From NCBI RefSeq assembly GCF_003386795.1, contig NZ_QTUC01000001.1, positions 2,852,001 through 2,916,000 on the forward strand: DNA of 64,000 nt, given 5' to 3'. A program made the translations under genes and the position numbers. Below the pieces are notes generated by a model. It ran no database searches. It was given only the letters and a program-made list of their open reading frames with translations, and was not told where the DNA came from. The stretch is from Thermasporomyces composti (GTDB lineage Bacteria; Actinomycetota; Actinomycetes; Propionibacteriales; Actinopolymorphaceae). Positions 10,617 to 31,996 of this stretch are shown in pieces (the first letter of the stretch is position 1; each line of letters begins with the position of its first letter).

Positions 10617-11597
10617 TCACAACCCGATGGCGCGCTTGGCGGCGGCCACGGTCGGCTCGGCGAGGGCTCGCGCCCGCTCCGCCCCATCCCGCAGGACCGC
10701 GTCGACATACTCCGGGGCGGCGGCGAGATCGGCGTACCGGGCGCGCAGTGGGGCGAGCAGGCTGATCACGGCGTCGGCCACGTCCCGTTTGAGCGCTCCG
10801 TAGGAGCTGTACCGGGTGGCGAGCGCGGCGGGATCGGACTCGCCGACACACGCGGCCAGGATGTCCAGGAGGTTGGCGACGCCCGGCTGGTTCTCCGGGT
10901 CGTACCGGACCTCGTGACGGGAGTCGGTGACCGCGCGCATCACCTTGTGGCGGATCACGTCCGGGGAGTCGAGGAGGCGGACGCAGCCGGCGGCGTCGTC
11001 CGGAGCGTCCTTGCTCATCTTGGCCAAGGGGTTCCGCAGGTCCTTGATCCGAGCGCCGATGACGGCGGGAATCATCTCGGGGACCACGAAGACCTCGCCG
11101 TAGGCCCGGTTGAACCGCAGTGCCAGGTCGCGGGTGAGCTCGAGGTGCTGGCGCTGGTCGTCGCCGACCGGCACGTGGGTGGCGCGATAGGCGAGGATGT
11201 CGGCCGCCATGAGGACCGGGTAGGTGTAGAGGGAAACCCGGGTCTTGGGCCGGCCGCGCCCCTTCTCCTTGAACTGGATCATGCGATCCAGCTCGCCGAC
11301 GTAGGCCGTGCACTCCAGCAGGTACGCCAGCTCCGTGTGCAGCGACAGGTCGCTCTGCCGGAAGATCACGCAGGAGGCTGCGTCCAGGCCCGCGGCGAGG
11401 TAGAGCGTCGCTGTCTCCACGGTGAGCCGGCGGAGCCGCTCCGGGTCATGGGGAACAGTCAGCCCGTGCAGGTCAACCACGGGGAAGACACAGCGAGCGT
11501 CGTGCTGGAGGTCGACGAACCGTCGGAGGGCACCGAGGTAGTTGCCGAGGGTCAGGGAGCCGGTGGGCTTGACGCCGGAGACGATCGTGCGCGGCAT
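10617..11597 (-). CDS. trpS: tryptophanyl-tRNA synthetase, probably the auxiliary indolmycin-resistant type
   Basis: Charges tRNA-Trp. The 326-aa class I enzyme has TLGN (residues 16-19) as its HIGH-type motif, VDLHGLTV, GELDRMIQFKEK, PVGDDQRQH and KMSKD at 193-197, where the usual KMSKS has lost its last Ser. The residue matching Gln9 of Geobacillus TrpRS is Lys10 (SGVKPTG). From memory, a Lys here has been linked to indolmycin resistance in Streptomyces. The neighbourhood (acuC, bldN, rsbN, rex, hemACD) resembles that of S. coelicolor SCO3334, the inducible TrpRS1. A leader peptide with two Trp codons and a four-arm attenuator lie upstream. SD GAGGAG precedes ATG 11597. Confidence 0.93.
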   Translation of the reverse strand: MPRTIVSGVKPTGSLTLGNYLGALRRFVDLQHDARCVFPVVDLHGLTVPHDPERLRRLTVETATLYLAAGLDAASCVIFRQSDLSLHTELAYLLECTAYVGELDRMIQFKEKGRGRPKTRVSLYTYPVLMAADILAYRATHVPVGDDQRQHLELTRDLALRFNRAYGEVFVVPEMIPAVIGARIKDLRNPLAKMSKDAPDDAAGCVRLLDSPDVIRHKVMRAVTDSRHEVRYDPENQPGVANLLDILAACVGESDPAALATRYSSYGALKRDVADAVISLLAPLRARYADLAAAPEYVDAVLRDGAERARALAEPTVAAAKRAIGL

Positions 11598-11649
11598 GGG
11601 ACTCCTCGTCGGGTCGGAAGTCGCCGCCGCGGGGACGCCCAGGTCCGTC

Positions 11650-11722
11650 GGCCGCCCTCGCGGGCGGCCTCGGTCGGGTCAGGTTGATCGCGCGCACGCC
11701 ACAAGGCCGCCCTCGGGCGGCC
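11650..11722 (-). promoter_or_regulatory. ribosome-mediated attenuator of trpS (four-segment)
   Basis: Two perfect hairpins share identical arms. Hairpin 1 is 11705-11722 (8-bp stem, 2-nt loop) and hairpin 2 is 11650-11669 (8-bp stem, 4-nt loop); arms read GGCCGCCC and GGGCGGCC on the transcript. Because the arms match, segment 2 (11705-11712) can pair instead with segment 3 (11662-11669), giving the classic 1:2 + 3:4 versus 2:3 choice. The two Trp codons of the leader peptide (11721-11726) abut segment 1, and its stop codon (11679-11681) falls between the hairpins. No U-tract follows hairpin 2, so it could block transcription or translation. Confidence 0.85.
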
Positions 11723-11750
11723 ACCAGCCACGGGAGCGAATCGTGCGCAC
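11679..11750 (-). CDS. trpS leader peptide with tandem Trp codons
   Basis: A 23-residue frame starts at GTG 11750 and ends at TGA 11679. It begins MRTIRSRGWWPPEGG, with adjacent TGG codons 9 and 10, then ends in RST. Two consecutive Trp codons in a 23-codon leader immediately before a synthetase for Trp, placed exactly against an attenuator arm, are very unlikely by chance. No Shine-Dalgarno is present; a TTATCG hexamer shortly upstream suggests a leaderless start. Ribosome stalling at codons 9-10 under tRNA-Trp shortage would mask segment 1 and favour trpS expression. Confidence 0.85.
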   Translation of the reverse strand: MRTIRSRGWWPPEGGLVACARST

Positions 11751-11868
11751 GTCGGCACGATAACCGATCAGCCGCGACCGCACGCGCGACCCAGCCTGGC
11801 GGAGACGCGCACCGCTGACTCGGCAGCGCGCTCACAGCACGAAGACATCGGGCCCGGGACCGTCGTCG

Positions 11869-31339: not shown

Positions 31340-31996
31340 GTGAGTCCTACCCGCACGATCGTGCACCTGCTGCGGCACGGTGAGGTCGACAACCCGCGCA
31401 AGGTCCTCTACGGACGTCTGCCCGGCTACCACCTGTCGGAGCGGGGCCGGGCCATGGCCCAACGGGTGGCCGAGACGGTCGCGGGGCGCGACATCGTCCA
31501 CCTGGTCACCTCGCCGTTGGAGCGGGCGCAGGAGACAGCCGAGCCGATCGCGGCGGCCTTGGGGCTCACGCCGGTCGTGGACGACCGGGTGATCGAGGCA
31601 GCCAACGTCTTCGAGGGGCAGCGGTTCGGCGTGGGCGACGGGGCGCTTCGTCGACCACGGGCCTGGGTGCACCTTCGGAACCCGTTCCGGCCGTCGTGGG
31701 GCGAGCCGTACCGCGCGATCGTCGTCCGCATGCTCGCCGCGATCGCGGACGCCCGGAAGGCGGCCTACGGGCACGAGGCGCTCCTGGTCTCCCACCAGCT
31801 GCCGATCTGGATCGTGCGCTCCTACGTCGAGGGTCGCCGGCTGTGGCACGACCCGCGCAAGCGTCAGTGCACGCTCGCCAGCCTCACGTCGTTCACCTAC
31901 GACGACGACCGGCTCGTCGCGGTGGACTACTCCGAACCGGCCGCCGACCTGCTGCCAGCTCCACCGTCCAAGCGAACCTTCGTGGCGGGAGCGTGA
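31340..31996 (+). CDS. histidine phosphatase family protein (phosphoglycerate-mutase-like)
   Basis: 218-aa branch 1 histidine phosphatase. LLRHGEVDNP carries the phospho-accepting His, SPLERAQETAEPI the second Arg motif, and LVSHQLPIW the second catalytic His. Start GTG 31340 has GGAG 5 nt upstream. It lies between hemL and the tlpA-ccdA-resB-ccsB set, a conserved actinobacterial order. The substrate is unknown, but the context suggests a link to haem or cytochrome c assembly. Confidence 0.88.
   Translation: MSPTRTIVHLLRHGEVDNPRKVLYGRLPGYHLSERGRAMAQRVAETVAGRDIVHLVTSPLERAQETAEPIAAALGLTPVVDDRVIEAANVFEGQRFGVGDGALRRPRAWVHLRNPFRPSWGEPYRAIVVRMLAAIADARKAAYGHEALLVSHQLPIWIVRSYVEGRRLWHDPRKRQCTLASLTSFTYDDDRLVAVDYSEPAADLLPAPPSKRTFVAGA

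Follow-up and report, generated by a model that had tools for sequence, protein, structure and literature searches.

How is the auxiliary trpS gene of Thermasporomyces composti controlled? The gene, which encodes a tryptophanyl-tRNA synthetase (TrpRS), lies in the 64,000-nt stretch of DNA that was analyzed as a whole (hereafter the window), and the same genome contains a second trpS (G000:C1:3272443) that is 51% identical to it. An auxiliary copy (67-76% identity to the window trpS) along with a primary copy was also found in all seven other genomes of the window family, Actinopolymorphaceae. Our analysis makes it very probable that the auxiliary TrpRS is controlled by a ribosome-mediated attenuator that senses charged tRNA-Trp. 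A previous sequence-only reading of the window had stated that attenuation of this kind was reported for the auxiliary, indolmycin-resistant trpRS1 of Streptomyces coelicolor. Such a report has indeed been published (Vecchione and Sello 2010, J Bacteriol 192:3565), as represented here by its citation in PMC4787780, and the indolmycin resistance of S. coelicolor trpRS1 is summarised in PMC9437257.

The elements identified between the putative promoter box and trpS are listed in Table 1. The 23-codon frame with tandem TGG codons described in the sequence-only reading was recovered and reads GTG CGC ACG ATT CGC TCC CGT GGC TGG TGG CCG CCC GAG GGC GGC CTT GTG GCG TGC GCG CGA TCA ACC TGA; the auxiliary trpS is therefore preceded by a leader ORF with a regulatory Trp codon. 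The position of the -10 box implies, by its spacing, a leaderless transcript that would start at or near position 11750. Downstream, GGCCGCC-type arms allow 1:2, 2:3, and 3:4 pairing. Hairpin sites of the form GGCCGCC(3-8)GGCGGCC occur in the window at exactly these two places (0.09 expected by chance), and the three-arm pattern was found at one place in the 4,372,514-base genome, with 0 occurrences in the reversed control. It had been proposed that segment 2 could pair with either segment 1 or segment 3 by an equal 8 bp. The arms are indeed identical, but the equality does not hold: hairpin 1 comprises 7 bp with a CGAG loop, because all eight pairs would leave a 2-nt loop, and 2:3 can reach 11 bp compared with 8 bp for 3:4 in the window copy. 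Folding energy was dropped as evidence, since the z-scores of the window element (-0.57 for the entire region, -1.35 for its core) did not reach significance; such energies are ordinary for GC-rich DNA, and the case therefore rests on comparison. A functionless chance repeat would agree with these unremarkable z-scores and with the 77% GC of the region. However, the single occurrence in the genome, the conservation at 64 orthologous loci, and the association with Trp genes (see below) make this explanation practically negligible.

Table 1. Features of the auxiliary trpS locus (positions refer to the window).
Feature	Position	Strand	Remarks
-10 box TATCGT	11757..11762	-	6 nt 5' of the leader GTG; TAnnnT at 6-7 nt in 50/64 loci
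Leader peptide ORF, 23 codons, MRTIRSRGWWPPEGGLVACARST	11679..11750	-	GTG 11750 to TGA 11679; (V/M)R...WW kept in relatives
P0 5' arm, GTGCGCACG	11742..11750	-	9 bp; takes in the leader start codon
Tandem Trp codons TGG TGG	11721..11726	-	First (11726-11724) is the likely stall codon; it starts 15-18 nt 5' of segment 2 in 64/64 loci
Segment 1, GGCCGCCC	11715..11722	-	1:2 with compensatory changes at three pairs across loci
Segment 2, GGGCGGCC	11705..11712	-	Alternative partner of segments 1 and 3
P0 3' arm, CGTGCGCGC	11690..11698	-	Fold of the window and pairing test over loci
Segment 3, GGCCGCCC	11662..11669	-	2:3 extendable to 11 bp (11712-11702 with 11672-11662)
Segment 4, GGGCGGCC	11650..11657	-	3:4 is a terminator-like hairpin with GCGA loop; no U-run 3' of 3:4
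SD-hairpin 5' arm, GACTTC	11617..11622	-	Relatives have GGCTCC/GGAGCC; compensatory G-C to A-U in the window
SD-hairpin 3' arm, GGAGTC	11600..11605	-	Overlaps the trpS SD AGGAG (11606-11602)
trpS, auxiliary tryptophanyl-tRNA synthetase, 326 aa	10617..11597	-	NCBIfam TIGR00233, 297.9 bits

Auxiliary copies were collected by protein search from Streptomyces-like (f22), Nocardioides-like (f4), Streptosporangiaceae-like (f20), and other families, the family names being inferred ones. A Trp codon, the arms, their spacing, and the position before trpS are kept in all 64 parsed auxiliary trpS loci from several families of Actinomycetes; these loci, whose sequences are related within families, are not independent events, and one further copy (L147), which was not parsed, was left out. 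A lack of conservation of the Trp codons and arms in relatives had been named beforehand as the finding that would speak against an attenuator, and the opposite was observed. The first Trp codon is invariant. The expectation of conserved TGG pairs was borne out for this codon but not for the second, in whose place LWRAA leaders have CGG (Arg). Thermomonospora echinospora, Actinomadura alba, and the seven other family genomes share a leader of the form (V/M)R(T/A/N)...WW(A/T)A; it ends in UAG or UGA, and this stop codon lies in the loop of hairpin 1, as the stop does in 55 of the 64 loci. Compensatory arm changes in relatives, which had also been suggested as a check, were found in hairpin 1 (Table 1), and hairpin 2 was paired in 99% of cells. 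The 2:3 pairing was kept in 93.8% of cells and gave no covariation signal of its own, because its columns are nearly invariant; the register-shifted locus L157, which retains GGACGGC/GCCGTCC, is suggestive only. U-runs follow 3:4 in many relatives. Some f20 loci (L141, L146, L148-L150, and L153) have single-Trp leaders (LWRAA...) whose stop lies 11 or 20 nt 3' of the first base of segment 2, and several of them combine a strong U-run with a strong SD-covering hairpin. In addition, an intact-looking leader (L159) lies upstream of a possible trpS pseudogene, an auxiliary copy that contains one in-frame TAG (G143:C11:72648-73586).

Besides the four segments, a strongly conserved outer helix (P0) is formed by pairing of the 5' end of the leader with the spacer 3' of hairpin 1. 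Summed over all loci, its pairing score was 1137, compared with 744 ± 18 in 300 shuffles, and its arms differ between families (GCGTACGTG/CACGTATGC, TCGCGCATGTG/CACATGCGCGA, GTGCTGA/TCAGCAC, and GCGCAACGT/GCGTTGTGC). Some of the Nocardioides-like and f20 loci have only a weak P0. Wherever its 5' arm begins at base 1, the start codon lies inside the helix. No description of P0 was found in the literature consulted on these attenuators.

Ribosome-constrained folding was carried out on 14 loci, with a footprint (A-site first base +14) assumed from E. coli ribosomes. When the ribosome was placed at the first Trp codon, P(2:3) before synthesis of segment 4 was 0.69-1.00 in the 14 loci (1.00 in the window), and the effect was weaker in most of them with the ribosome at the second Trp codon. 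Except for L154 (0.98), P(2:3) was 0 in all loci (13/14) with the ribosome at the stop codon, and it was low in the absence of a ribosome except in L066 and L154. Folding with segment 1 blocked or free, as proposed in the sequence-only reading, thus gave the expected switch, with a stall at the first Trp codon favouring 2:3. Even when a ribosome is stalled, 3:4 prevails at equilibrium, and the switch must therefore be kinetic. The constrained folding, together with the 64/64 conservation, supports the earlier prediction that a stall on the Trp codons would free trpS.

With these anatomical, comparative, and modelled data in hand, we infer the following course of events. Transcription would begin at the leader GTG or close to it, with immediate initiation by a ribosome. 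When Trp-tRNA is plentiful, the ribosome should pass the Trp codons, 2:3 would not form, and the 3:4 hairpin would stop or hinder the polymerase. If no ribosome is present, P0 and 1:2 would hold segment 2, and 3:4 would again form. When Trp-tRNA is scarce, either by Trp starvation or because the primary TrpRS is inhibited, the ribosome is predicted to stall with the first Trp codon in its A site and to cover segment 1; segment 2, free 15 nt ahead, would then pair with segment 3 before segment 4 is synthesised, and trpS would be transcribed. Induction of the gene, with TrpRS inhibitors as a possible signal, would be the outcome.

The window copy deviates from its relatives in several respects. 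Its leader has one G missing after TGGTGG and a C in place of the T of the loop stop, and the ribosome would therefore read through hairpin 1 and P0. The peptide runs 13 codons past the Trp pair to a stop (11681-11679) about 10 nt 5' of segment 3, and segment 2 keeps its usual distance of 15 nt from the first Trp codon despite the 1-nt deletion. A leader stop between the hairpins, as noted in the sequence-only reading, is thus correct for the window but not as a general trait; judged from the comparison of leaders, it is a derived peculiarity of this genome, although eight other loci also stop later than the usual, non-defining position in the hairpin-1 loop. The lack of a U-tract after hairpin 2 was confirmed: there is one T in the 10 nt after segment 4, the lowest value among the 64 loci (mean 4.7), and a consensus scan gave no terminator-like site. 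Poor tails after 3:4 were also observed in four relatives from the window family. As a U-run directly after 3:4 marks the classic enteric-type attenuator with an intrinsic terminator, the window switch works like an enteric-type attenuator but is not classed as one with an intrinsic terminator. Either it is leaky, or its arrest is independent of a U-run. In the window genome, the ribosome would pass through hairpin 1 and stop just before segment 3, and 3:4 would form without a U-run, so that the arrest step may be weaker or leakier, different, or factor-dependent.

These deviations also raise the question of whether the element is a relic, having lost terminator strength and the leader stop and leaving trpS largely constitutive. 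The most extreme loss of the loop stop, the poorest U-run of the 64 loci, and a 2:3 helix longer than 3:4 would fit such decay. On the other hand, the deletion has left P0, the Trp codons, all four arms, and the 15-nt spacing intact, weak U-runs recur in the four family relatives, and S. lividans TrpL2 was reported to lack a U-rich tract yet was termed an attenuator (PMC8079986). We thus consider decay unlikely, and a functional attenuator remains our preferred interpretation. A more elaborate version of it is possible, and we offer it tentatively: the arrest would be modified, with the leader ribosome moving through hairpin 1 as far as the foot of segment 3, and 3:4, lacking a U-run, arresting the polymerase via pausing, Rho, or another factor; the outer helix would set the default by hiding the leaderless start codon; and the whole would be a portable module, taken up elsewhere by a non-orthologous trpS.

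Control could also be exerted on translation, if the state of the leader determined whether a hairpin over the Shine-Dalgarno (SD) sequence of trpS is open or closed. Such an SD-covering hairpin does exist: a compensatory change is seen within the window family, other families have strong versions of it, and its pairing total is 807 versus 705 ± 18 in shuffled sequences. However, arms swapped between species pair almost as well, and this species-swap test was not significant overall; the modelled SD accessibility in the window was 0.20 in both the 2:3 and the 3:4 state and, except for L117, nearly unchanged between states in the other loci tested. The SD hairpin was therefore rejected as a switched element. 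Considering also the U-runs that follow 3:4 in many relatives, translational control appears quite improbable, and attenuation of transcription is retained.

A tRNA-binding T-box, or another described riboswitch, was also considered; Firmicutes trpS genes are often controlled by T-boxes. Nevertheless, an Rfam search of the window found no family at threshold, with the T-box model unmatched, and a translated leader with stalling geometry accounts for the conservation; this explanation is hardly tenable. The specificity of the leader was further examined with controls and covariance searches. No leader of this type was found upstream of the second trpS of the window genome, the other primary trpS copies fetched from the window family, or trpS of Acidimicrobiia, Paenibacillus/Bacillota, and others; homologues of the window trpS that lack the leader are housekeeping or other-lineage copies. 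A covariance model built from ten close relatives (R1) and used blind on 395 genomes of the class matched 6 of them, always 5' of a trpS. As this model was too narrow, a broader one (R2) was built, which matched 99 of the 395 genomes. The loci of all 26 strong R2 matches fetched (L191-L216) contain an auxiliary trpS. Part of the weaker matches was classified. In a Pfam scan of ten of them, the gene downstream encoded a chorismate-binding enzyme (TrpE) in eight cases, a TrpD-type transferase in one, and a TrpRS in one; a further TrpRS was detected by tblastn at L227. Wherever the gene class was checked, the matches belong to Trp genes only (trpS, trpE, and trpD). The window copy, which was in the training set, scored 57.9 bits with R2 (E 4.9e-10 over about 100 kb). 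A weak match at 31747-31821 (minus strand, 18.9 bits, E 0.033 over about 100 kb) is probably due to chance. WW or WWW leaders with GGCCGCC arms were observed 5' of trpE and trpD in several actinobacterial families (L217-L236). A single architecture serves Trp genes, which agrees with the common triple reported in PMC1262725. Since trpS is the sole R2-type match of the window genome, its trp biosynthesis genes seem not to be under this architecture.

Comparison with known systems places the locus more precisely. E. coli trpL has tandem Trp codons and 1:2, 2:3, and 3:4 logic, both of which recur in the window; the window differs in its leaderless start, its aminoacyl-tRNA synthetase target, the lack of a U-run, and a stop beyond segment 2. 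In S. lividans, TrpL2 (MMTRTCTQLWRAA) precedes trpS, its transcript was reported to be leaderless, no U-rich stretch is present, and the second Trp position is an Arg codon, as in the LWRAA leaders (PMC8079986); Streptomyces-like loci collected here carry MTTRTCTQLWWAA, which is near the reported peptide. Insofar as the S. coelicolor work is represented by its citation, the window shares with S. coelicolor trpRS1 and S. lividans trpL2-trpS a leaderless Trp leader, two GC-rich hairpins, and an auxiliary TrpRS gene downstream, the enzymes forming one clade; it differs from them in a leader extending 13 codons beyond the Trp pair with no stop in the hairpin-1 loop, a weaker tail, a different leader sequence, and a start codon inside the outer helix. 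An attenuator of S. avermitilis trpS2 was predicted in 2005 (Seliverstov et al. 2005, PMC1262725). This system and the actinobacterial trp operon attenuators resemble the window in a Trp run and in the gGCC-rGCy-GGCC triple common to antiterminator and terminator (PMC1262725), and R2 finds both trpS and trpE/trpD leaders; the trp operon terminators of that study all have poly-U, whereas that of the window does not. Because attenuation has been published for S. coelicolor, as known through its citation, and predicted for S. avermitilis trpS2, the window locus is an addition to the known Streptomyces-type Trp switch, with local peculiarities.

An auxiliary, TrpRS1-like synthetase thus carries a Trp-tRNA-sensing leader across several Actinomycetes families, whereas the primary trpS of the window family does not. 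An induced back-up of an aminoacyl-tRNA synthetase would be a general, testable trait, and plausibly resistance to TrpRS inhibitors as well. P0, the invariant Trp-codon spacing, and terminators lacking a U-run offer handles on attenuation in high-GC bacteria. Residues H43, D132, and Q147 of B. stearothermophilus TrpRS contact indolmycin (PMC4899734). All three are retained by the window enzyme as well as by the other copies compared, auxiliary and primary, and they therefore do not predict indolmycin resistance and were ruled out as predictors. The N-terminus of the window enzyme (SGVKPTG; 10620-11597, minus strand) has Lys in place of Gln9 in the GIQP signature of bacterial TrpRS, as do most auxiliary enzymes compared. 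A link between Q9K and inhibitor insensitivity is a possible lead only.

In a tree of 81 TrpRS sequences, all 43 leader-bearing enzymes included form one clade (100/97) adjoining leader-free Acidimicrobiia enzymes. The window TrpRS falls in this clade together with the Streptomyces auxiliary enzymes, and its link to S. coelicolor TrpRS1 itself is based on the match in leader sequence. Two Trp leaders (L108, G481:C1:857621-857706, and L231 in G245) lie 5' of a divergent TrpRS about 37% identical to that of the window. The G481 enzyme (37% identity; leader MRTRIGMWWAADRRP), whose leader is among the six R1 matches, is of a different lineage, a second trpS is present in that genome, and no WW leader was found with its 70%-identical relatives in three genomes. 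As these close relatives have no leader, the pattern suggests that the control module may have moved between non-orthologous trpS genes. Moreover, the auxiliary TrpRS of Thermomonosporaceae (L004 and L005) nest inside the window-family clade (L083-L089) and share its VRT...WWAA leader, which suggests that gene and leader were transferred horizontally between Thermomonosporaceae and the window family.
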